A stretch of DNA of 30,252 nucleotides, from IMG/VR virus record IMGVR_UViG_3300037493_002005, positions 1 through 30,252 of that record; one strand, written 5' to 3'. How positions within the stretch are numbered: position 1 is the first letter of the stretch; the number at the start of each line of letters is the position of its first letter. Both the position numbers and the translations under genes were made by a program. This document shows positions 1 to 30,106 of the stretch, in pieces. The DNA is from a virus. The notes under the pieces are model-generated. The model worked only from the letters and a program-made list of their open reading frames with translations. It ran no database searches and had not been told where the DNA came from.

Positions 1-176
1 CCCCGCCTGATTTGTATTTAAATAATTCATCGTTTTACAAAAAAGGGGCGAGGTTTAACGCCCGCCCCCGTTTTAAAATATAGAACCCCTTTAACGAATA
101 TTATTGCACTACGGCAATTCCCGCGAAGTTATCGAAAGGAACCGAAGTAAAAGCCTCAAGGAAATCGGGTTGACCT
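1..176. repeat. Left copy of terminal redundancy (circular overlap)
   Basis: Bases 1-176 match 30077-30252 at 174 of 176 positions; the differences are at 128 (G here, A in the other copy) and 173 (A here, T in the other). The repeat spans the 3' end of the probable major tail protein gene, a terminator hairpin and the start of the next gene, so it is the closing overlap of a circular or circularly permuted molecule rather than a separate element. Both differences are third-position synonymous changes. Confidence 0.95.
40..74 (-). terminator. Rho-independent terminator after the probable major tail protein gene
   Basis: Read on the minus strand, a GGGGCG / CGCCCC stem (bases 63-68 with 45-50) closes a 12-nt loop and is followed directly by six T residues. 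It sits between the stop codon at 101 and the next minus-strand start codon at 28-30 (equal to 30104-30106). It probably limits read-through from the capsid and tail-tube genes into the portal block. A second copy lies at 30116-30150 because of the terminal overlap. Confidence 0.75.
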
Positions 177-646
177 GGCTCCTGAGCGTTAACGGTAATT
201 TGGTAACCGTTAAGGTCGCCTTTCGCCTTTCCTGATTGATACGAACCCGTCGTTAAAAACGCGCCGTCGGTACGTCCTACACAAACGATTTGGTTATCGT
301 ACAATTCAACGAAAACAATTAGTTTCGCTTTGCTCATTTGCTCGAGTTCTTTTTTCTTATCGTTCGAAAGTTTGCCCAAAGTGAGCTCGACCGTTTGATC
401 GTAGTATAAAGTCCCGTTTTCGAGGTTGGCGGTTGGAACTACTGTTACCGCTCCCGTATTTCGATTCGGCTGATATTGGAAAACATCAACGCTTCCCGCC
501 GCACCTGGCAGGCCGTCGATAATTCCGTTGGCATCTAACGTAATTCCGCTGGCGAAAAATTCCCAATTCGCGAAAAATACGTTTTTAACGCCGCCGACCC
601 CCTCGTTACAATCGAGCATAAAGCCCGCCGATAATAAACATGGCAT
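101..646 (-). CDS. Probable major tail (tube) protein
   Basis: The 181-residue protein begins with a Cys-containing segment (C3, C13) followed by GGVKNVFFANW. It has beta-rich sequence throughout and ends in a compact domain containing NGYQITVNAQEP. I recognise this pattern from Bacteroidota phages and prophages, where a protein of this size and N-terminus lies next to the capsid gene and is often taken to be the tail tube subunit or another abundant structural protein. Here it follows the major capsid gene across a 53-bp gap containing a strong GC hairpin, and is itself followed by a terminator. That fits a highly expressed virion protein. The ATG at 644-646 is the only sensible start. The tail-tube role is inferred; a head decoration protein is the main alternative. 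Confidence 0.6.
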   Translation of the reverse strand: MPCLLSAGFMLDCNEGVGGVKNVFFANWEFFASGITLDANGIIDGLPGAAGSVDVFQYQPNRNTGAVTVVPTANLENGTLYYDQTVELTLGKLSNDKKKELEQMSKAKLIVFVELYDNQIVCVGRTDGAFLTTGSYQSGKAKGDLNGYQITVNAQEPGQPDFLEAFTSVPFDNFAGIAVVQ

Positions 647-3004: not shown

Positions 3005-3033
3005 GGCCTCCAAACGTGGGGGCCTTTCTTTTT
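3005..3033 (+). terminator. Hairpin terminator oriented against the late genes
   Basis: On the plus strand GGCCTCC (3005-3011) pairs with GGGGGCC (3018-3024) through 7 bp including one U-G pair, with a 6-nt loop and a following TTTCTTTTT. On the minus strand the stem has a C/A mismatch and is followed by CCACCC, not a U-tract. It lies in the 79-bp gap between the tape-measure stop codon and the protease start codon and overlaps that stop codon. It may block antisense transcription. Confidence 0.5.
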
Positions 3034-5590
3034 ATAGTCGCGCCAAGTCTTGAACTTTTGCGCGCGCCTCGAGTGAACTCGCCACGTCACCCGCGAGCAC
3101 ATAGGCGGGCGTCGGTTGCTGAGGTTGGTTCTGAATATTAAACGCCGCCAGCGGGTTAAAATCGGGGACGGTTCCACCCGTCGCCGCCACGCCTTGAGCG
3201 CTCAGGCTTGGGACGCTCGTATTATTTCCCCCACTTGGGGCGGGTGAACTGAATGTCGTCGCCTTAATCTTTGCCACGTTAGCAAGTCCCGCCGCCACGG
3301 CCGCCGCCGCCGCGATAAATGCACGCGGTACGCTCGTAGGGTCGCCAGGAATTAATTGGGACGCGTAAGCGCCCTGAGCGGCTTTATAGGTCTCAATACC
3401 CGTTTGTGCGATTTGGAGGGCTTTTTGGCGCTGAAATGTGGCCTTTTGGCTTTGCTGGCTTTTATCCGCGAACGCCTCGTTTAACGAAAGGAGGGTCGAT
3501 ACGGTATTTGTGGCGGCTTGGATACGAGCGTCGCTTAGTTGCTTCGCCTTATCCGCCTCGGCTTTGGCCGCGTCCTCGCGTTTTTTGGTTTCCTCATCCC
3601 GATACTTTTGGCGAATTTCCCCCTCTTTGGTTAGTAATTCGTTTTCGAGGTTGGCCGCGTCCGAACCCGCCGCCTTTAATATTTCGATTCGTTCAAAATA
3701 AGAGTCTCTAAGCGCCTGTAATTCGCGGTCCTTTGCCGATAACCCAGCTTGGAAATTTTGCTCCTCAAGCGCCTCAAGCTCGGCCGCCTCATTTATTGCA
3801 TTTTGGCGAACTTGATTCGCGAGCGCCTTATCCTTTTCGGCTTGTTGGGCGAGCTCAAGGTCCGAATATTTTTTTAATACCCCAAGGCGCTCGGCTTCCT
3901 TTTCCTCGGCGATTTGGTTTATTAACTTTTGATTGTTTCCCGCCTGAGTTTTTAGCTTTTCATATTTTAAATCGAGTTGGCGGAGCTCCTTTTCCTCATC
4001 ACTTAAACCCGCCTGAAAACGAGCCTCACGGGCGTCCTTAATTGCCTGAGTTACCTCGGCCTCGTTTTGCTTAATTTGTTGGGCGCGTTGCTGGGCCGCT
4101 TGCTTTGCTTTTTCGATACGGTCGGCCTCCGCCTTTTCGGCATCTTCTCGAGCTTTTGCCACCCCCGCCGCTTCATCCTCGGCCGCTTTTATATTAATTT
4201 CACCGTTGGCCGCAAGCGCTTTTGTTCGCGCGTCGACTTGCTCTTTGGTTAATAGAACTCCTTTTTTTTCGAGCTCGTTAACGCGATTAATTAAATTATC
4301 GTTTTCGGCGATTTCCTTTTTACGATAATCGTCGTTAATAGCCTTAACGTCCCCGCCTGTTTTCTGAGCATTTGCCACCGCCAAACGGCGCGCGTTATCG
4401 AGTTTTTTCTGATTCCCCTCGAGGTTCGCGATAGCTGAATCCACAGCATCAGCCGCCGCGACCGCCGTTAATCCGATAGCGTCCGTAAATCCTGTAATCG
4501 CGTCCTTGACAAATCCCACCACCTTACCAATCGCCTCGAAAGCAACCCCAACGCCAGGAATGACGTTCGCGAGTTTATCGAAATTTGTTACTATTAAGGC
4601 GATAATGCTACCTATTAAAAATATAGGGTTCGTTAATAATGCTTTTCCGAGATTTAAAACCGATTTTGTAAACGCCCCCGAGCCTTGCGTAGCGCCTGAA
4701 AAATTAAGGCCCTTAACGTTTTTTGCGAGCCCGTTAATACTGTCAGCGGCCCCCTCGAAATCGAGCGACCCGAGGCGGCTTTTGAGGTTTCTTAAATTAT
4801 TTCCCGCACTTTCGAAAGCAGGCCCAGCGTTCGCCCCAATTTCCTCGTTAAAATCTTTTTGAGCGTCCTTTAATTGCTCGAGCCGCGTTTTTAGTTGCTG
4901 ATATTCGGCCGAGGTTTTCGGGAGGTTGGTAGTTTGGAGCTCATTCGTGAGGTCCTTTATTTGCTGGCGGAAATTTTTAATCGGTTCCGTTGGAACGTTG
5001 GCCCCCAAATCATTCAAGCCTCCTTTTAATTCGTCGACGCTTTTAACACTAACCGCCGCGTCCTCAAAATCTAATGAACCTAAACCCTCTCTAAGTGTGT
5101 TTATATTATTCGATGTCGATTCGATAGCGTTCCCCGCGTTGGCGCCAATTTCCTTATTAAAATCTATTTGGCGATCCTTTAATTCGCTGAGCTCCTCGGA
5201 AAGTTTTTTATATTCATTTGTACCTTGTGCTATTTGCCCGCTCGTTAGTGTATTTTGAAGCTCGTTTATTTGCTCTTTAAGCGTTTTCGTTTGTTGCGTT
5301 GGAAGATTTTTACCAAACGACTCGAGGAGCGCTTTTAATTCCTCAGTTGATTGGCTAACTACTTTCGATGAGCCTCCGAGTTCTTTATATTGCAAAGCGA
5401 GCTCGGCCCATTCGCGCGAACTTGGATCAACTGAGGCCAATTGCTTTTTAAGGTCGCCCACTTGCTGGGCCCAACCCTGAGCCGACGCCCCCGCCTCGTT
5501 AATTGCGCCCGTGAGGTTGTCGATACTTTTGGTAGCGCCCGAATCGTCGACCGTTAAAATTACTTGCGCTTTTAAATTTTCCTCAGCCAT
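3032..5590 (-). CDS. Tail tape measure protein
   Basis: The 852-residue protein sets tail length and is carried inside the tail tube. It is strongly helical with long coiled coils (about residues 100-145, 205-255 and 460-690), a hydrophobic stretch about 318-350 (LLTNPIFLIGSIIALIV), and an Ala/Ser/Pro-rich C-terminus. Two internal duplications are visible. Residues about 84-183 and 187-286 are copies of each other, sharing EIGANAG and LGSLDFE, and two coiled-coil units later each contain FQAGLS. By the usual rule of about 0.15 nm per residue the tail would be near 130 nm, which suggests a siphovirus; this is inference. Its ATG lies inside the end of the upstream 59-codon gene. Confidence 0.88.
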   Translation of the reverse strand: MAEENLKAQVILTVDDSGATKSIDNLTGAINEAGASAQGWAQQVGDLKKQLASVDPSSREWAELALQYKELGGSSKVVSQSTEELKALLESFGKNLPTQQTKTLKEQINELQNTLTSGQIAQGTNEYKKLSEELSELKDRQIDFNKEIGANAGNAIESTSNNINTLREGLGSLDFEDAAVSVKSVDELKGGLNDLGANVPTEPIKNFRQQIKDLTNELQTTNLPKTSAEYQQLKTRLEQLKDAQKDFNEEIGANAGPAFESAGNNLRNLKSRLGSLDFEGAADSINGLAKNVKGLNFSGATQGSGAFTKSVLNLGKALLTNPIFLIGSIIALIVTNFDKLANVIPGVGVAFEAIGKVVGFVKDAITGFTDAIGLTAVAAADAVDSAIANLEGNQKKLDNARRLAVANAQKTGGDVKAINDDYRKKEIAENDNLINRVNELEKKGVLLTKEQVDARTKALAANGEINIKAAEDEAAGVAKAREDAEKAEADRIEKAKQAAQQRAQQIKQNEAEVTQAIKDAREARFQAGLSDEEKELRQLDLKYEKLKTQAGNNQKLINQIAEEKEAERLGVLKKYSDLELAQQAEKDKALANQVRQNAINEAAELEALEEQNFQAGLSAKDRELQALRDSYFERIEILKAAGSDAANLENELLTKEGEIRQKYRDEETKKREDAAKAEADKAKQLSDARIQAATNTVSTLLSLNEAFADKSQQSQKATFQRQKALQIAQTGIETYKAAQGAYASQLIPGDPTSVPRAFIAAAAAVAAGLANVAKIKATTFSSPAPSGGNNTSVPSLSAQGVAATGGTVPDFNPLAAFNIQNQPQQPTPAYVLAGDVASSLEARAKVQDLARL

Positions 5591-10511: not shown

Positions 10512-11036
10512 TTATTTAATGTATTTATCGGCTTTTAGTCGAGCCTGTTTAAATATTTCCTTTTGATAAAATAAACGGAATTCCTTTCCGCTTTTTCTAA
10601 ATTCATCTTGGAACGCGTCGCGCATGTAATCGATTCCAACGATGCCACGGGTTCCGATTCGGCGCGCCATTCTCGCCGCCTCCCAAAGTTTTGTTTTTTG
10701 GTTATCTGATTTAAACAAACTTTTCGCTTTCATCCAATCGTAAATCGGCGAAACGGGCGGCCACGTTTTCGGGTCGTTATTTGGGCGGCGTCCCTTTTCG
10801 ATTACGTCGGCGTAGTTACGTGTGGGGTCGTTTGGCTTCACTCCAAACCATTGTAATATTTGCGGCCCTCGTTTGAAGTAACCCCAAGTCAAAGCGGCTA
10901 ATAAGTTACCCCGATAAACACGGTTCACCGACCGCCCGCGAATGGTTCGTTTTTTTCTTAGATTCGCCTGAGCGCGTTTAATTACCCGCGCCCCGAATTC
11001 ATCTAAAACGGGTTTATATGTTTCGAGCTTTGCCAT
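10512..11036 (-). CDS. Head-tail joining / tail completion protein (HK97 gp10-like)
   Basis: The 174-residue protein is strongly basic (motifs ANLRKKRTIRGRSVNRVYRGNL in part, YADVIEKGRRPNN, ARMARRIGTRGI) with aromatic residues around a small central domain. The combination of a basic helical N-terminus and the YADVIEKGR-P pattern resembles the HK97-gp10 / neck-protein group that caps the connector or tail. It starts with TAATG overlap on the preceding gene and ends one base before the next ATG. Family assignment is tentative. Confidence 0.5.
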   Translation of the reverse strand: MAKLETYKPVLDEFGARVIKRAQANLRKKRTIRGRSVNRVYRGNLLAALTWGYFKRGPQILQWFGVKPNDPTRNYADVIEKGRRPNNDPKTWPPVSPIYDWMKAKSLFKSDNQKTKLWEAARMARRIGTRGIVGIDYMRDAFQDEFRKSGKEFRLFYQKEIFKQARLKADKYIK

Positions 11037-13642
11037 TATAATACCTCCGAATATTCGAGCACGCTTCCCGCCCTTATTGTTAACGCCCCCGCGCTTGCTC
11101 CTCTAAATCGTATTGTCCACGTTCCCGAGGCGGTCACGCGGAAAATACCGTCGGCCGTTATCAATCCGTTCGACGCTCCAAATACATTTGTGCCTGTGTC
11201 ATATACGTTTTGATTGCTTACAGCGTTGGCAGTCGCTCCCGTTGCAAGCGTAAATCGAGCGTTAGTAAATGCATTTGCAGGGCCGTTAGTACTTGCGAAA
11301 TATTGGGCCGTAGCAAAAAAAGCAAGCGTCGCGCGCCATTTGTACGTTTTCCCCGCCGTAACGGCAAAACTCAAGCCTGTAACATCCTCGAAACCCGTTC
11401 CAACGTTTACCACGTTCGCGGCCACTACGAGCATAATATCCGAGCCGAGCGAAAGGTCCGTTTTTAACTCCGCCAGCGTCAAAGCGGCGACCGTATTATC
11501 GGCGTTTATTCTGAGGTATCGAACCGCGCTCGGATTCGGGAGCGTGGCGAGGTTGGTCCCTACCGTAGTTAAGCCAATTGAATTTTGTTTACCGTTAAAA
11601 GTTGACCAATCCGCACTCGATAACGCGCCGCGATTTGCCGCGCTCGCCGTGGGTAAATTAAACGTGTGAACGCTTCCCGCTGAGTTGATCGCGAAATCCG
11701 TTCCCGCCGTTCCCGTGGTTAGGCTTTGCACCTGAGCCGTTAAACTGTTTAACGCCGTTATGCCTGTGCTAAACGTCGTTGTTATTTCGCTGAGGTGAGG
11801 GCCCTCAGTGTGGAGCGTTAACGTCCGTCCGCTCGTAGTTACAAAAATTCGGATAGCTATCCTATCGCTCGCAGTTAGAACCGTAGCGGGCACGCTGATA
11901 ACCGACGTATATAAATCGATTACGGTCCCCGCCGTAATACCCTCAGGGTTGGCCGCGTTGCTTGCGATTAACGTTAACGTGGCGCCGTTGTATTTATATA
12001 ATTCAATATAAAAAGAGGGATTTCCCCCAACGCTTGACGCGCTAAAAAACGTTTCGAAATGCCAATTTCCTGATGGTATTAAAAGTAAAGCGGGGTCGTT
12101 TATATCCGTAATAAATTGCGCGATATATCCATTTCCCGCCCCATTAGTTCGAACGAAATCCGTTCCCGTACCTATGATAGCCGTTTTACTTAATTGCTGA
12201 AATGTAGCGCCTCCGATAGTGCCCTGTGAAACGCTACCGTTTAAATAATAATTAACTGAGGCGCCACCGCCGCCGCCCGTTGGAAAATTCGCGAGCGTTC
12301 CGTCGCCCCGTACATATTGCGACGCTACACCCGCGCCCGTTACCGCCAGCGTTCCCGCCGTGGTTACGGGTGAGCCCGCCACCGTGAACGCGCTCGGCAT
12401 GGTTAGGCCTACCGACGTAACCGAACCGCCACCGCCCACCGTGGTAAATTCCACCTCACCCGTTCCCGCGTTGCTCAGGGTTAGAACTTGGCCGACCGTA
12501 GCCGTCGCGTCGTTTACGTTTGGCGTTTTAAGGCGGGCCGAATTCGGGAAAAGGGTTAACGAGGTTTCATTAGATGACGCCGATTCGCTCGCGCTTATTA
12601 CGGCTTTTGTGGTATCGGTTAAAACTTGCGTTTGAGTCGTTCCCGTTACCTTTTGCATCGTTACGGAGTTGGCATCGATACCCAGCGACGCGTCCGAACT
12701 TACGTTAATGTCAATTTTTGAAGTTGAGTTAACGGTAAATTCTGAAGTGCCGTCAATAGTTAGCCCGAACGTGTTCGCGTCGATGGTATTATCGGCCGTT
12801 AATACGGGGTCGGTCGTTATAACATCTTGCAACCCCTGAGCCGTTGGAATGACTGGGAACGTTTGGAGCGCCCCCGTTCCGTCGATGTATTGAACTGATG
12901 TTCCCGCACCTGTAATCGCCAGGGTCCCCGCTCCCGTTATGGGCGAACCTGAAACCGCAAAAGCCGAGGGGACCGTTAAGGCTACTGAGGTAACCGTCCC
13001 ACCTCCGCCACCGCCTCCCGTGGAATTTATTGTAACGGTTCCGTTTCCATTATCTACTATCGTAACGTTGGTTCCTTGCTGTAAATTCAAAAGAGATTGA
13101 AGCCCGTTGTTTACCCCGTTCGTTTGGAGCGTAATACCAACCGCCACGCCCTCACCGCCTGAGCCTGAGCCACCAATCGTAAAGTCGGCGGGTATGTCGC
13201 AAGCGCTCCAATCCCAAGGAACCGAAAGCGTCATTTGTAAGTTAACGCCTACGAGCGTATGAGAAAACTCATTTATGAAAACCTCTATACTCGCGCCCCC
13301 ATCGAGCTCGACGAACGGCCCGAAAACGATTTGCCCGTTTTGAACCTCGGCGAGTAAATCTTCAGCCAGCTTAATACAGTCCGAAATACATTCGCGTTGG
13401 TATTCGGCGGGCGTCTCTTTATCGCGTGGCAAATCGGCGAAAATGATAACGAACGAATAAAGGCGCGTCCCCGCGCGCGGTTCCACCTCTACGGGCAAAA
13501 CGTGCATCCAAGGAAATTGGACCTCCTTTTCAATGTCTATATTGGACAAATCCCCATGCGAGAAACCCTTTATTAAAAAGTGGGCCTCAGCGAAAGCGCG
13601 AAACCTATCAATTAAAACGTTGTAACTTATTTGCGGTATCAT
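11036..13642 (-). CDS. Neck-type domain fused to a tail-fibre protein
   Basis: This 868-residue protein has two unlike parts. Residues 1-155 are a compact globular domain (KGFSHGDLSNIDIEKEVQFP, then FADLPRDKETPAEYQRE and a closing LSVPWDWSACDIP) that I recognise from Bacteroidota phages as a small conserved structural domain near head-tail joining genes. After a Gly/Ser linker comes a fibre: two ~47-residue repeats at about 217-263 and 408-454 (TSVALTVPSAFAVSGSPIT and TSVGLTMPSAFTVAGSPVT), Gly-rich hinges, a middle beta region, a third short repeat-like part (GTNLATLPNPSAVRYLRINA) and a C-terminal domain (about 735-868) likely to touch the host. ATGA overlap ties it to the tail chaperone frame. 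Receptor binding by the C-terminus is inferred. Confidence 0.65.
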   Translation of the reverse strand: MIPQISYNVLIDRFRAFAEAHFLIKGFSHGDLSNIDIEKEVQFPWMHVLPVEVEPRAGTRLYSFVIIFADLPRDKETPAEYQRECISDCIKLAEDLLAEVQNGQIVFGPFVELDGGASIEVFINEFSHTLVGVNLQMTLSVPWDWSACDIPADFTIGGSGSGGEGVAVGITLQTNGVNNGLQSLLNLQQGTNVTIVDNGNGTVTINSTGGGGGGGTVTSVALTVPSAFAVSGSPITGAGTLAITGAGTSVQYIDGTGALQTFPVIPTAQGLQDVITTDPVLTADNTIDANTFGLTIDGTSEFTVNSTSKIDINVSSDASLGIDANSVTMQKVTGTTQTQVLTDTTKAVISASESASSNETSLTLFPNSARLKTPNVNDATATVGQVLTLSNAGTGEVEFTTVGGGGSVTSVGLTMPSAFTVAGSPVTTAGTLAVTGAGVASQYVRGDGTLANFPTGGGGGASVNYYLNGSVSQGTIGGATFQQLSKTAIIGTGTDFVRTNGAGNGYIAQFITDINDPALLLIPSGNWHFETFFSASSVGGNPSFYIELYKYNGATLTLIASNAANPEGITAGTVIDLYTSVISVPATVLTASDRIAIRIFVTTSGRTLTLHTEGPHLSEITTTFSTGITALNSLTAQVQSLTTGTAGTDFAINSAGSVHTFNLPTASAANRGALSSADWSTFNGKQNSIGLTTVGTNLATLPNPSAVRYLRINADNTVAALTLAELKTDLSLGSDIMLVVAANVVNVGTGFEDVTGLSFAVTAGKTYKWRATLAFFATAQYFASTNGPANAFTNARFTLATGATANAVSNQNVYDTGTNVFGASNGLITADGIFRVTASGTWTIRFRGASAGALTIRAGSVLEYSEVL

Positions 13643-13815
13643 TTTCTAAAGGTCGTTTTCATTATTCGCGTTTGCTCACTGCTAAAATCCCTCATGTAAC
13701 TCAGATGCGTAAAAATCGCCGTCGCTGGCGTATCTAAAACGAGTTCGTGTTTGGTTATATCATTTCCCGAGATAGCCTCGAGAATGTGATACCAACCCCA
13801 GCGGCTCAGTCCTGA
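13639..13815 (-). CDS. Tail assembly chaperone, frameshifted C-terminal segment
   Basis: A 58-codon frame that lies -1 relative to the upstream 196-codon gene runs to a TGA at 13639-13641, which overlaps the next start codon as ATGA. The frame has no ATG, GTG or TTG upstream within its open part, so it is best read as the extension of the preceding gene by a -1 frameshift. Its sequence (SGLSRWGWYHILEAISGND, then a helical stretch ending KTTFRK) has the WGWY...GD pattern I associate with the second product of tail-assembly chaperone pairs, which carries a T-type domain that binds tape measure. Coordinates begin at the first codon after the run of five C; the true junction may be further upstream. 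Confidence 0.65.
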   Translation of the reverse strand, partial: SGLSRWGWYHILEAISGNDITKHELVLDTPATAIFTHLSYMRDFSSEQTRIMKTTFRK

Positions 13816-14396
13816 GGGGGTATAACCGTCGCCAGCTCCGTCGTCATCAGACGGTCCAAAGAGTCCAACGAATTGTTGACTAATTCGGCGCCGATACTCG
13901 AAAAAAAAAGCAAGCCCCCTTGAATTCGGTCCATTGTTAACGCGTTAATCGCGTGCATGTATTTTTTAACGTTCGCCGAGTCGTATTTAACGAGGTTATA
14001 ATAGTCCCCAACCTGCTCAGAAATTGGGCGGTAAATTATCGCCGCGAGTTGCGCAAGGTTCGTGTAATCCGTATCCCCATTTGTGAGCCAAATCGATTTC
14101 GAAAGTTGATCCAAGTCGACGTGCTCGCGGAACGTCATGTTATTAATATCGGGAATAAAGCCCAGCTTAACGCCCTCGACGGTTACGGTCGGCGCGTGGG
14201 TGTCCTTTCCCGTCATGCACGCCGTCGTAAACAAATCGATAACCGTTTGCACCGTTTCGGCTTTGAGCCCCTCGCAGTATTCGCGGCTTTTGTTAATAGC
14301 AATCATAGCGCGCTGGGTATCGTCCTCCGCCGTTTCGAAATCAACGAACCGCTTTAACGTTATTTGGTCGGAGCTTACGGGAATATACAGTTTCAT
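13806..14396 (-). CDS. Probable tail assembly chaperone, N-terminal (G-like) product
   Basis: The 196-residue mostly helical protein begins MKLYIPVSSDQITLKRFVDF and contains FIPDINNMTFREHVDLDQ, which is typical of phage proteins that I have seen next to frameshifted tail chaperones. It carries no enzyme motif. A tract of nine T (coding strand) at 13901-13909, within codons 161-165, and a run of five C at 13816-13820, near the stop, are two possible slippage sites. A -1 shift at either would join it to the open downstream frame. Its ATG overlaps the terminase small subunit stop as ATGA. It lies more than 8 kb from the tape measure, an unusual distance for this class. Confidence 0.65.
   Translation of the reverse strand: MKLYIPVSSDQITLKRFVDFETAEDDTQRAMIAINKSREYCEGLKAETVQTVIDLFTTACMTGKDTHAPTVTVEGVKLGFIPDINNMTFREHVDLDQLSKSIWLTNGDTDYTNLAQLAAIIYRPISEQVGDYYNLVKYDSANVKKYMHAINALTMDRIQGGLLFFSSIGAELVNNSLDSLDRLMTTELATVIPPQD
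13813..13820 (-). promoter_or_regulatory. Candidate -1 frameshift site (CCCCC with downstream hairpin)
   Basis: In the upstream frame the message reads ATA CCC CCT CAG GAC TGA; moving back one base gives TCA GGA CTG and the open WGWY frame. Directly after the C run, CUCA and UGAG can form a small hairpin (loop GGAC), and CCCC can pair with the GGGG further along. The shifted tRNA would read CCC in place of CCT, which is acceptable pairing. This is one of two candidate sites; the other is the T9 run at 13901-13909. Confidence 0.45.
13901..13909 (-). promoter_or_regulatory. Candidate slippage site, run of nine U in the tail chaperone mRNA
   Basis: The coding strand reads CTT TTT TTT TCG within the chaperone gene. 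Both P-site and A-site tRNA-Phe could slip back one base with full re-pairing, and a polymerase could also stutter here. The -1 frame is open from here to the TGA at 13639. A shift here would replace the last 31 residues of the upstream product with a longer Arg- and Gly-rich stretch before the WGWY segment, which looks less protein-like, so I rank it slightly below the CCCCC site. Confidence 0.4.
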
Positions 14397-14740
14397 AAAT
14401 TGGCGCTTATGGTTATTACGGGTTGGTTATCGGCGCCCGTGATTTCCTGGCGCTCGATGTACCCGCGTTTTTTACCTTTGGTTTTTAAAAAGAAAATCGT
14501 CGCGGCGGTATCCCCCTCCTTTATTAGCGTGTGGAGTTGGCCCTCGGCGAAATCCAAAACGGACCCGTCGAGCTCATCGACCGCAAGTTTATAATCGGGG
14601 TCGTTCTTAAGCCAATAATAATGGACGTCGCGACTCAACCCAACGGCGGCGGCCGCTTTGGTTACAATTCCCAAATTAGCCTCGAGCGCGTCGAGAAACG
14701 CCCTTTTTTTAGTGTTGAACTTTGCGAACTTATCTTCCAT
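14393..14740 (-). CDS. terS: Terminase small subunit
   Basis: The 115-residue protein recognises phage DNA for packaging. An N-terminal helix-turn-helix is clear (about residues 20-50: KAAAAVGLSRDVHYYWLKND), followed by the helical oligomerisation region with FAEGQLHTLIKEGDTAATIF and the conserved FLKTKGKKRGYIER motif (about 83-97) seen in many Gram-positive and Bacteroidota small terminases. The start ATG (14738-14740) overlaps the upstream stop as TAATG. The large subunit is not next to it but 2.6 kb away on the other strand, which is uncommon. Confidence 0.85.
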   Translation of the reverse strand: MEDKFAKFNTKKRAFLDALEANLGIVTKAAAAVGLSRDVHYYWLKNDPDYKLAVDELDGSVLDFAEGQLHTLIKEGDTAATIFFLKTKGKKRGYIERQEITGADNQPVITISANL

Positions 14741-17126: not shown

Positions 17127-17298
17127 ACTCAATAACCTAATTAGCGAAACCTTTGGAACCCGAAACGAATTCGCCCTCAAAATGAAGGTTTCACGTTGGA
17201 CGGCTTACCGTTGGCTCGATAACCCCGAAAGGATGGATTTAAAGGCCTTAAAACGCCTCGCAAAGCTCACGGGCAAACCCTTAACCGAACTCGTTTAA
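17113..17298 (+). CDS. Cro/C1-type helix-turn-helix regulator
   Basis: The 61-residue protein is almost wholly a DNA-binding domain: MNSDKLNNLISETFGTRNEF, the turn ALKMKVSRWTAYRWLDN (recognition helix about residues 27-35) and the stabilising helix DLKALKRLAKLTGK. Such small Cro-like proteins usually bind inverted repeats as dimers. It is the only obvious Cro-type factor here, and the operator-like sites at 16175, 18688 and 19098 are candidate targets. It overlaps terL by one base (TAATG). Confidence 0.7.
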   Translation: MNSDKLNNLISETFGTRNEFALKMKVSRWTAYRWLDNPERMDLKALKRLAKLTGKPLTELV

Positions 17299-18593
17299 TG
17301 GTTACTTTTTTACCCAAGCAAATCGAATGTTTGAACGCCCTCGGGTTGGACTCACCCGCCGAGGTCGTTTTATTTGGGGGCGCCGCTGGCGGGGCAAAGT
17401 CGTTCACGGGTTGCGCGTGGCAAATCCAACGCCGTTTAAAATACCCGAAAACGAGGGGGCTAATTGGGCGCTCCAAACTTGACACCCTGAAAAAAACAAC
17501 GCTAAAAACGTTTTTTGAGGTCGCTCAGTTATTCGGGCTCCGAGCTAATGAGCACTATCAGTTCAATGCTCAATCGAACGTTATAACGTTTTACAACGGC
17601 TCGGAAATCATTCTTAAAGATTTGTTTTCGTATCCCTCCGACCCCTCGTTTGATTCGCTCGGGTCGCTTGAAATTACCGACGCCTTTATCGACGAATGTA
17701 GCCAGGTGAGCAAAAAAGCCGTTGACATCGTTAGAAGCCGTATCCGTTATAAACTGCGAGAATTCGATTTAAGCCCGAAAACGTTGTTAACGTGTAACCC
17801 GTCGAAAGGTTGGTTATATAACGAAATATACGCCCCGTGGCGCGCTCAGAACCTCCCGAGCTTCATTCAATTCATACCCTCAAGGGTTAGCGATAATCCC
17901 CACCTCCCCGCCACTTACGCCGAGACTTTGGCGCGGCTTCCCGAGATGGATCGTAAACGCTTGCTTGAGGGTGATTGGGATTACGACGAAACCGCCGACG
18001 CCCTTTTCCTTACCGACGACATCCTGAGGGCTTTTCGTGAGCCCCAAAACGACGGGGAGCTGTATATAACGGCCGACGTTGCGCGGCTTGGAAAGGATAG
18101 GACCGTTATCGCCCTTTGGCGTGGCCTTTCGCTTATCCATATAACCGAACTCAGAAAAAAGAAAATCGACGAAACCGCCGCCGTTATTCGTGCAATGGCG
18201 GACCACCATAAAGTAAAACTTTCGAACGTCCTGGCTGATGCCGACGGGCTGGGCGCGGGGTTAGTGGACGTTCTGAAATGCCGCGAATTTCGTAACGGCT
18301 CAAGGGCCACTAAGCCCGAGCGGTTCGTTAACCTCAAGGCGGAATGTTTTTTTAAGCTCGCCGAATTTATCGAACTCAATAGAATGGTTTTCCCTCAGGC
18401 CAATAGGGACGTTATCGTTAAGGAACTCGATTTAATCCGCCGCAAAAACCCCGATGGGGACGGAAAACTCGCAGTAACAGGAAAGGAGGAAATCCAACGA
18501 ACTCACGGTATGAGCCCCGATTACGCCGACGCTATCGCGATGAGGATGTATTTCGAGCTTTTTCCCAATTATGGGCGCTATTCGTACGCCTGA
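17298..18593 (+). CDS. terL: Terminase large subunit
   Basis: The 431-residue ATPase/nuclease drives DNA packaging. Motifs: Walker A-like GGAAGGAKS at 27-35, Walker B with catalytic glutamate ITDAFIDE at 126-133, coupling motif LLTCNPS at 163-169, then the RNase-H-like nuclease with ITADVARLGKDRT (first Asp D260), a second acidic motif (VLADADGLGAGLVD) and the conserved SPDYADAIAMRM near the C-terminus. Length is normal for the group. It is cotranscribed with early small genes and a Cro-like gene on the plus strand, whereas the small subunit lies in the late unit on the other strand. This would make the two subunits appear at different times unless transcripts overlap. Confidence 0.92.
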   Translation: MVTFLPKQIECLNALGLDSPAEVVLFGGAAGGAKSFTGCAWQIQRRLKYPKTRGLIGRSKLDTLKKTTLKTFFEVAQLFGLRANEHYQFNAQSNVITFYNGSEIILKDLFSYPSDPSFDSLGSLEITDAFIDECSQVSKKAVDIVRSRIRYKLREFDLSPKTLLTCNPSKGWLYNEIYAPWRAQNLPSFIQFIPSRVSDNPHLPATYAETLARLPEMDRKRLLEGDWDYDETADALFLTDDILRAFREPQNDGELYITADVARLGKDRTVIALWRGLSLIHITELRKKKIDETAAVIRAMADHHKVKLSNVLADADGLGAGLVDVLKCREFRNGSRATKPERFVNLKAECFFKLAEFIELNRMVFPQANRDVIVKELDLIRRKNPDGDGKLAVTGKEEIQRTHGMSPDYADAIAMRMYFELFPNYGRYSYA

Positions 18594-27667: not shown

Positions 27668-29724
27668 TATCTTCTATAATTTTTGCCGTTTACGCCGTAA
27701 ATTGGGTTATCAGGGAGAAACCCGTTAAAATCCTGATCCACGGGCAAAAGCGCGACCCTTATATCGTTTCGCACCGTGTACCCCATCCGCTCGGCTTTTT
27801 TAACCGCGATTTGTTGGGAATCATTCGCCAGCGGGTTAATTCCTTTCGCATTTATATAAACCTCTTTTTGCCAAAAGTGATAACAGTTACCGCCGCCTTT
27901 ATAAAGCCAAATCGAGTAATAATCCGTCCCGTATGGACCCCATCCACGGTTAACCGCTTTTTGTTCCATCGCCTCAATATCCTCTTTCCTGTAAAGTTTA
28001 TCGGCGGCAATCATTTTTTTACAAAATTCGCGCTCAGTGGAGGCGCGCCCTTTATATCTATACCGCGTCATGAATGTAACGCCCGCGTAATTCGTTTCGT
28101 CTTGATCGCTTGGCCGCATGGCTTGAGCCCTTCCCGTCGATGCCAATTCATGGGCGGTTATTTTAACGAGCTCCTCGTTTTCGGCGTCATCGTTATCGTA
28201 ATCGACTTCGTAGGAATCTATTAAAATATAACCCGAGGGGGGTTCGGTTCCGAGGGCTATCAGCTCCTCGGCGATTTCCGAGCCCAGCTCCTCGAGTTCG
28301 TTGGTTTCACGCGCGCAACAAACAGGCTTTTTTTTTTCGCCCTTCAAATGAGCCATTAAAGTTTTAACGGAATCCATCGCGACCTCCTCAGGGTTTACGC
28401 TTCCCGCCGTTATACCCGTGAAAATATCGTCGATTTGCTGAGCCGTTAACGTTGGGAACGACGCGCGCATTACACCTTTGGCCGATTCCACAGGTAAAAC
28501 ACCCGTCGCGGCTTGGATTAATATCTCGACCATTGAAGCAATTTGAGCCCCATTAAGCGCCGAACCCGCGACGTTTGCATCGGTAGCCTCAGCCGTTGGC
28601 GTTATTCCTTCCGTTGGCTTAATTTGAGCCGTATCGGCGGTAATCATAAGCGGCGAATTTGGTATAACGGTAATCGTTATATTAGGCATTTCGTAGCTCA
28701 AAATTTGCTCGAGCCCGTCCGCTAGTTTTCTTTGGGCTGGGTCTACGACCTGATTTGTAAAAATTTCAAGGCCGACCGCCATTTCGTCCTTATTCGAACC
28801 GAACCCACCGCCCACGTCACGAATACCGAAAAGCAAAGGCGTTACGACGCGGTGAGCGACCATAATTAAAGAGGTGGATTCTTTCGAAAGAAACTCGTAT
28901 TGTTTATCCGCGTCGCTGAGCGGGAAAGTAGTTATTTCAGGCTTTGGAGTATCGCGCTCGTTAAACGTCATTATGAATTTACCCGCGTTTCGAGCGCCCG
29001 TTAATTCGCGTTCCCAATCCCTTTTAATTTGTTGTTGTTCATCAGGAGCGGGGGCGCCTTGGAATAGGCTTACAATCATGGACGGACTGAGCCCATTCAT
29101 AATATTATTAACGTGGTAAACGCTAATTTCGCGCGCTAATTCGATAGAATTAATAGCGCTGTAATAATCAGGGCGCGGGTAAATATTAGCCCCGCAATAT
29201 GCGAACTTATAAAATATTTGCCTCGGCTCTTCGCCGTTATTCGTTGGATTAAATACGGGTAAAAACTCGGGCTTATTTCTTTTTTTACGCGTGTTCGCCC
29301 AATCGTTGGAATGATAAACGCCGACGATTTCCTCCTCCTCACTCGAGACCGCTATTCTACATTCCTCAAAGGGTAAATGTCGAATTTTTGCGATGTTTTG
29401 GCGATCAACTGAATAAATTACCTCGATATAATAACCGCCGTATTTTTTATAATCATGAGCGCACCCATAAAACACGTCGTAAGCGCTGAGCGCCTCGAGA
29501 CGTTTGTTGTAAACGCCAGCCTCGAGACCTTTTCCCGCAAACATATCGCCAATCGATACACACAAAGAACCGTGAACGGCTCCCGTGGCGGCGAGCTCAG
29601 ATAAATATTGTGGAAATAAATTATCGACGCCGTAATTAACCCAACCCGAACGGTCGGTTTTTTCGGCTGAGCTCCTCACGGTATAATCGGCGAGGTTTAT
29701 TCGTTTAACGTTATGGGTTTCCAT
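27667..29724 (-). CDS. Portal protein with C-terminal Cys/His extension
   Basis: The 685-residue protein forms the dodecameric gate for DNA. Residues about 1-370 are portal-like: SGWVNYGVDNLFPQYLSELA, GYYIEVIYS, PSMIVSLFQGAPAPDEQQQI (clip region), VTPLLFGIRDVGGGFGSNKD and FTNQVVDPAQRKLADGLEQI. A linker follows, then about 385-440 a helical part (AQIASMVEILIQAATGVLPV). Residues 551-685 are an extra domain with YRYKGRASTEREFCKKM, LYRKEDIEAM and YSIWLYKGGGNCYHFWQKEV, resembling the Cys/His region of Mu gpF / SPP1 gp7-type minor head proteins. A portal fused with such a domain would explain why no separate minor head protein gene is found; that is inference. Confidence 0.82.
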   Translation of the reverse strand: METHNVKRINLADYTVRSSAEKTDRSGWVNYGVDNLFPQYLSELAATGAVHGSLCVSIGDMFAGKGLEAGVYNKRLEALSAYDVFYGCAHDYKKYGGYYIEVIYSVDRQNIAKIRHLPFEECRIAVSSEEEEIVGVYHSNDWANTRKKRNKPEFLPVFNPTNNGEEPRQIFYKFAYCGANIYPRPDYYSAINSIELAREISVYHVNNIMNGLSPSMIVSLFQGAPAPDEQQQIKRDWERELTGARNAGKFIMTFNERDTPKPEITTFPLSDADKQYEFLSKESTSLIMVAHRVVTPLLFGIRDVGGGFGSNKDEMAVGLEIFTNQVVDPAQRKLADGLEQILSYEMPNITITVIPNSPLMITADTAQIKPTEGITPTAEATDANVAGSALNGAQIASMVEILIQAATGVLPVESAKGVMRASFPTLTAQQIDDIFTGITAGSVNPEEVAMDSVKTLMAHLKGEKKKPVCCARETNELEELGSEIAEELIALGTEPPSGYILIDSYEVDYDNDDAENEELVKITAHELASTGRAQAMRPSDQDETNYAGVTFMTRYRYKGRASTEREFCKKMIAADKLYRKEDIEAMEQKAVNRGWGPYGTDYYSIWLYKGGGNCYHFWQKEVYINAKGINPLANDSQQIAVKKAERMGYTVRNDIRVALLPVDQDFNGFLPDNPIYGVNGKNYRR

Positions 29725-30106
29725 TGTAAATAATATCGTCGTTAATGGTTATCGTAGGTACGTCGTAATAAATTGTCGAGCTCTTTAAATCGAGCCAACC
29801 GATACGGCAAAGGCCAACGACCGCCGCGTTAGTTGGGTCTAAATTTACGGCTGAATTTTGGCCGTAAACATAGTATCGATAGCGTCCTGGCAGCGTTAGC
29901 CCGAACGTCGTTACGGTTAATTGGGTTATTCGTTGGTTTTCGATTACAATCGTAGGGACTTGGGCGAGCTCCTCGCCAGCGGTGGAATTTTCCTCATGAA
30001 TTAAAATAAACAAATAATGGGTAAAAGCGCCCGCGAAATATTGCCGCGATTCGTTCAAACTTAAATATAAAGTTTGCCCCGCCTGATTTGTATTTAAATA
30101 ATTCAT
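29711..30106 (-). CDS. Conserved structural-block protein (131 aa)
   Basis: The 131-residue beta-rich protein begins MNYLNTNQAGQTLYLSLNES, then RQYFAGAFTHYLFILIHEEN, and contains YRYYVYGQNSAVNLDP. This family is frequent next to portal or tail genes in Bacteroidota phages and prophages as I remember it, without an agreed function. It overlaps the portal start by 14 bp. In the circular genome it lies directly after the terminator following the probable major tail protein. Possibly a virion decoration or connector component. Confidence 0.6.
   Translation of the reverse strand: MNYLNTNQAGQTLYLSLNESRQYFAGAFTHYLFILIHEENSTAGEELAQVPTIVIENQRITQLTVTTFGLTLPGRYRYYVYGQNSAVNLDPTNAAVVGLCRIGWLDLKSSTIYYDVPTITINDDIIYNGNP

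Follow-up and report, generated by a model that had tools for sequence, protein, structure and literature searches.

The stretch of DNA analysed here (the window; 30,252 nucleotides (nt), positions 1 to 30,252 of IMG/VR virus record IMGVR_UViG_3300037493_002005) comes from an uncultured phage, most likely of Bacteroidota, and carries, on the minus strand, a gene that is apparently decoded in two overlapping frames. The 0-frame gene (13806–14396), designated G, opens with ATG, comprises 196 codons, matches PHROG family 32199 and has homologues in the relatives described below. The −1 frame portion of the predicted long product (13639–13902), designated T, contributes 87 amino acids (aa) and a TGA and contains the motif WGWYHILE. 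The putative site of the frame change is a run of nine U (U9; 13901–13909, codons CTT TTT TTT TCG), which includes U_UUU_UUU (13902–13908), a candidate ribosomal slip heptamer that is also in frame in the relatives. From there on, G and T would share a dual-coding overlap (13806–13902). An earlier note, made from the letters of this DNA, had described the −1 frame as 58 codons long and lacking a start codon. The frame is in fact open over 101 codons from stop to stop (13944–13639), of which 89 are counted from inside U9, so that it extends beyond U9 on the upstream side, and no start codon precedes WGWY in the window. The TGA of T (13641–13639) and the start codon of the following gene, ATG, overlap in the sequence ATGA (13639–13642); this overlap, also pointed out in the note, is shared by 37 of the 38 close relatives.

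Taken alone, these features are not exceptional. A frame of 89 codons was open by chance in approximately 1.4% of dinucleotide shuffles, and runs of at least nine T were present at three places in the window (both strands), fewer than the average in shuffles. The open T frame by itself is thus weak evidence, whereas its conservation is strong evidence, and since neither the rarity of the run nor the length of the frame suffices, the case rests on conservation.

Relatives were collected by scanning IMG/VR with the 196-aa protein, which yielded 38 loci (the close relatives), and by scans with profiles of G and of the T domain, which extended to relatives whose G proteins are about 20–35% identical. 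Of the 514 and 583 relatives that two T-domain scans returned, the 80 best from each were used. The survey of the frame-change site comprised 349 loci with the site in 227 distinct contexts, grouped into 112 clusters; sites cut by contig ends were left out. Some contigs enter the locus counts more than once through overlapping records, so the number of clusters is the figure to quote; the clusters were built on shared 8-mers and do not represent independent lineages. Apart from the phages P12024S/L and the loci in bacterial genomes, the sample is metagenomic. The cultured relatives belong to one genus, the Nonlabens (Persicivirga) phages P12024S/L, and a protein search for further cultured phages returned these phages only. 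A first scan of a genome collection gave no match; a second, with distant members as queries, retrieved a prophage region of Galbibacter pacificus and a Bacteroidetes metagenome-assembled genome. Together with P12024S/L, these finds indicate that the family most likely belongs to Bacteroidota phages.

The U9 run was conserved throughout. In 38/38 close relatives, the run consists of exactly nine T in the same codon phase. In 112/112 clusters, which cover the IMG/VR loci, P12024S/L and the Galbibacter prophage and in which G identity goes down to about 20–25%, it keeps the phase xTT_TTT_TTT_T and is never shorter than nine T (99 clusters with nine, 12 with ten, one with twelve). The alignment of homologues that the earlier note had proposed as a check thus identified U9 as the retained site. 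Its flanking codons vary, with L, V, I or F before and S, Y, W, F or L after the run. The same picture was obtained with the T-domain scans, whose peptide patterns exclude the slip site: of 159 loci examined with no filter on run length, not one had fewer than nine T. Phenylalanine codons elsewhere upstream in G are TTT in 64% of cases, so that codon preference does not account for the invariance of both phenylalanine codons in U9. The last T of the heptamer is never replaced by C, which would be silent in G (phenylalanine) and would specify leucine, a common residue at this place, in the T frame. The invariant codons and the missing C together argue that selection acts on the nucleotides.

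The position of the frame change was located by the distribution of substitutions over codon positions in two separate groups of close relatives. At every locus examined in the family, the T frame is the −1 frame relative to G. Upstream of U9, variation was concentrated at the third position of G codons (0.38 versus 0.14 and 0.07 at the other positions in group 1; 0.48 in group 2). In the first 44 nt past U9, variation at this position dropped to 0.10 (group 1) and 0.24 (group 2), and past the G stop it moved to the third position of T codons (0.34 and 0.43, respectively). When examined in 33-nt steps, the drop fell into the interval that holds U9. The comparative signal therefore places the frame change at U9 and not at the second homopolymer in the gene, CCCCC (13816–13820). 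The earlier note had counted both runs as slippage sites and derived from CCCCC the junction VIPPSGLSR. Both runs exist where it placed them, and U9 stood up; a shift at CCCCC is exceedingly improbable. That run is present in the window and intact in 21/38 close relatives, yet it is absent from the other 17; its phase, A_CCC_CCT, gives no full in-frame X_XXY_YYZ heptamer; and it lies within the region under two-frame constraint. If the frame changed there, the 80 nt from U9 to CCCCC would be single-coding, yet third-position variation is suppressed in them. In group 2, moreover, the G stop is located 36 nt further downstream, beyond the position of CCCCC, while T is unaffected. Because CCCCC is not conserved, lies inside the two-frame region and is upstream of a moved 0-frame stop in part of the family, VIPPSGLSR is wrong as a junction. 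A shift at U9 instead predicts the junction GGLLFFFEYR (...GGLLFF|FEYRRR...) and the junction peptide IQGGLLFFFEYR.

With the shift at U9, the gene would encode a short product of 196 aa and a long product of 252 aa (165 + 87 aa). The two-frame constraint and the conservation of both products support, on comparative grounds, a programmed frame change through which a single gene gives two nested products, and a separate C-terminal domain in the −1 frame was present at every locus examined. In the T domain, F1, F2 and W39 were invariant in 37 divergent sequences and the WxW motif was conserved; this conserved domain adds support for a tail assembly chaperone pair. The earlier note had assigned the WGWY pattern to the second chaperone product. 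The overlap from the U9 run to the G stop had a median length of 172 nt and a maximum of 271 nt over the 112 clusters. At four loci (L183, 1340–2103; L236; L239; L243), the 0-frame G gene ends only about 10–20 nt ahead of the T stop, so that both frames cover the greater part of the T domain.

It is very unlikely that G and T are instead separate proteins, with T started independently or by coupling and without a fusion. This arrangement would agree with P12024S/L, where the T frame contains an ATG and two genes are annotated, and with the start-like codon of some kind that precedes the WxW motif in 14/112 clusters. Between U9 and this motif, however, the T frame contains no ATG, GTG or TTG in 98/112 clusters, and an ATG in five; homologues in which the downstream frame stands as a gene of its own with an ATG, which would have spoken against the earlier note, are thus not the pattern of the family. 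Constraint on the T frame also extends as far back as U9, ahead of every possible start codon, and U9 is invariant. Even in P12024S/L, U9 is kept and the frame is open back to it. In these phages, G corresponds to P12024S_38 and T to P12024S_39, with an identical U9 in the same phase and a terminase gene adjoining; they differ from the window in an identity of 27%, the T-frame ATG and an annotation as two hypothetical proteins that does not record the frame change. The GenBank annotation of P12024S_38/_39 (L041, 14001–14695) could be revised, as a U9 fusion is expected there.

We consider it very probable, on comparative grounds, that this gene encodes a pair of tail assembly chaperones and acts like lambda G/GT, with the long form made through a −1 change at U9. 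The assignment is based on the −1 pair of short and long products, on the gene's place at the start of the tail block, on a hint from the predicted fold and on the finding of no other candidate beside the tape measure gene. As in lambda gpG/gpGT, one gene would give a short product and a −1 long product whose C-terminal extension is a second domain. The lambda proteins share no sequence similarity with G and T, the lambda slip site is G_GGA_AAG and not U9, and the shift in the window lies about 31 codons before the stop, whereas that of lambda is near the end. The HK97 pair gp13 and gp13-14 (PDB 2ob9) is likewise annotated as a −1 frame-changed pair. The G model (predicted local distance difference test score (pLDDT) 81.8) was compared in a second look with 299 chains supplied by Foldseek and aligned, among which the HK97 tail assembly chaperone 2ob9 ranked first (Z 3.4, 3.3 Å, 56 residues). 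In BFVD, the G model matched P12024S and many proteins from uncultured phages; two proteins annotated as tail assembly chaperones were weak matches.

Several results weigh against the chaperone assignment. The 2ob9 match, at Z 3.4 over 56 residues, gives weak model-based support for a chaperone fold, and Foldseek of the G model against the PDB returned nothing significant. The T-domain model was of low confidence (pLDDT 64), and none of the four chains compared with it in a second look reached a Z of at least 2. Pfam gave no credible match for G or T, and in PHROGs G corresponds to phrog_32199 and T partly to phrog_38404, both listed as function unknown. Alignment of the single lambda G and T sequences with the family profiles by hhalign gave a probability of 0.1%, i.e. 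no homology. Because no sequence homology to them is detectable, G/T is not filed in the lambda gpG/gpT sequence family, while it is taken to work like a tail assembly chaperone. The usual, not defining, position of such chaperones is between the major tail protein and the tape measure gene, and G/T adjoins neither the tape measure gene nor the putative major tail protein gene. A genuine frame-change gene with another role, such as a neck or terminase accessory protein, would account for the terminase small subunit gene adjoining G in the window, for the terminase large subunit gene beside it in P12024S and for the missing homology to known chaperones. It would leave unexplained the short/long −1 pair, HK97 gp13 as the top fold match of the second look, the location where the tail genes begin and the fact that no other candidate was noticed beside the tape measure gene in the window; we regard it as unlikely. 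The earlier proposal of a frameshifted tail assembly chaperone therefore holds for a −1 two-product gene of chaperone type, conserved across the family, and fails in its choice of two slip sites.

The tape measure gene (3032–5590, minus strand; 852 aa) was recognised by PHROG tape-measure matches and the conserved gene order; tape-measure assignments in general rest on PHROG profiles and similarity. It begins 8.0 kb downstream of G/T and is the fifth gene on, with four genes between, in accordance with the 8 kb and five genes given by the earlier note. The order TerS (small terminase subunit), G/T, 868-type gene, TC174, 429, 1155, tape measure is the same in every long locus of the close family, where about 8–9 kb separate G from the tape measure gene, and in P12024S the terminase large subunit gene, G and T are followed by a tape-measure-like gene about 6.6 kb downstream. 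The 8-kb separation is thus a family trait. It sets the window apart from lambda, in which G/T lies between the major tail protein gene V and the tape measure gene H while in the window it follows the terminase gene, and from HK97, with the order major tail subunit, gp13/14, moron, tape measure.

On this reading, most decoding events would stay in frame 0 and give the 196-aa short protein, whereas a minority would shift to −1 at the nine-U run and give the 252-aa fusion of the first 165 residues with an 87-residue helical domain. By analogy with lambda, the shared N-terminal part may coat the tape measure protein and the additional T domain may recruit the tail-tube subunit. The comparison of sequences establishes the U9 site, the −1 direction, the two-frame constraint from U9 and the conservation of both products; a role as chaperone, the proportion of the two products and their binding partners are put forward as inferences.

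For the frame change itself, we lean towards a ribosomal −1 slip on U_UUU_UUU. Quite possibly, however, the same gene makes the same products by slippage of RNA polymerase on T9, which would add one U (or 1+3n) to some messenger RNAs and thereby yield the fusion by ordinary translation; a mixture of both processes is possible. Since a ribosomal −1 slip and the insertion of one U give an identical protein, mass spectrometry can confirm the fusion and cannot tell the mechanisms apart. The site has the features of both, an in-frame X_XXY_YYZ heptamer (U_UUU_UUU) and, in 112/112 clusters, the homopolymer of about nine A or T that is typical of transcriptional slippage. A run that is never shorter than nine in 112 clusters, whereas the ribosomal heptamer needs seven, and a heptamer that always ends in T, though C would be tolerable in both frames, speak for the polymerase. 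Amino-acid constraint in one of the frames would suffice to explain the first T, and likewise the ninth, so that nine need not be the selected unit; the minimum length, though suggestive, does not decide the matter. Folding around the site gave mean z values of −0.22 to +0.06 over the 112 clusters, i.e. no conserved RNA stimulator, with pseudoknots and Shine–Dalgarno-like elements outside the search; this speaks in some measure for the polymerase, and no other stimulator was found near the site. Neither a conserved hairpin upstream (as a slippage stimulator) nor one downstream (as a ribosomal stimulator) was retained as a candidate (mean z about 0 in the 112 clusters), and an upstream dip in mean folding energy vanished against dinucleotide shuffles. 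Frameshift stimulators are not always present.

Published data bear on both mechanisms. Slippage of bacterial RNA polymerase occurs on runs of seven or more T (PMC6260861), Tn with n>8 is listed among the realignment sites (PMC3711429), and genes with programmed transcriptional slippage need no RNA structure (PMC5009743, PMC3711429, PMC4256274). On E. coli ribosomes, U_UUU_UUU is modestly shifty and shifts less readily than A_AAA_AAG (PMC5009743). The tail chaperones described in the literature surveyed, in contrast, all use ribosomal frameshifting. Thermus dnaX (A9), Shigella mxiE and Citrobacter tssM (A11) resemble the window in a homopolymer of at least nine and a short and a long product, obtained by transcriptional slippage; they differ in that they are not phage tail chaperones. 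A literature search of incomplete coverage returned no description of this U9 site or of transcriptional slippage in a tail chaperone. We tentatively raise the possibility that RNA polymerase slipping on an invariant T9, and not ribosomal frameshifting, fixes the short:long ratio in a large family of tail chaperones of Bacteroidota phages that has so far gone unannotated. To our knowledge, no tail chaperone using transcriptional slippage has been described so far, and the family would be the first if this were true.

The U9 frame change of these putative tail chaperones is a new form of a known phage strategy. It provides a likely function for a large phage protein family that is unmatched by Pfam and of unknown function in PHROGs, together with a clear rule for the annotation of the fusion. 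An invariant run of nine without detectable RNA structure also makes a good natural system for the question of ribosome versus RNA polymerase slippage. Given the long two-frame overlap and the distance to the tape measure gene that the family maintains, a search for such genes must not presuppose that the shift lies close to the stop or that the tape measure gene is a direct neighbour.

Flavobacterium phage 6H encodes a weak structural relative of G (L196, 10352–10927) with T_TTT_TTC near its end, which was rejected as an equivalent site because a stop follows directly in the −1 frame. An unannotated gap of 300 nt lies behind this G-like gene, and the route to a fusion, if any, differs. Three single predicted chains in BFVD (A0A6J5N0W0, A0A6J7WJY4 and A0A516L5A8; 243–267 aa) resemble the G model as well as the T model, which suggests one-frame fusions in some uncultured phages or homopolymer sequencing slips.

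Directly upstream of G, in a conserved order, the minus strand encodes the small terminase subunit (14393–14740; PHROG 4044), and a terminase-large-like gene, identified by eye, is located about 2.5 kb away on the plus strand (17298–18593). The gene after G/T (11036–13642, minus strand; 868 aa) combines a conserved N-terminal part of about 155 aa with a fibre-like, glycine-rich remainder; P12024S has a separate 138-aa gene at a similar place after T. Structural genes run off the left end of the window (1–646), where 646–101 encodes a tail-tube-like protein of 181 aa, and resume at the right end (29711–30106) with a gene at 30106–29711 and the portal gene at 29724–27667. With head and tail genes at both ends, the contig looks as if a circularly permuted genome had been cut inside its structural block.

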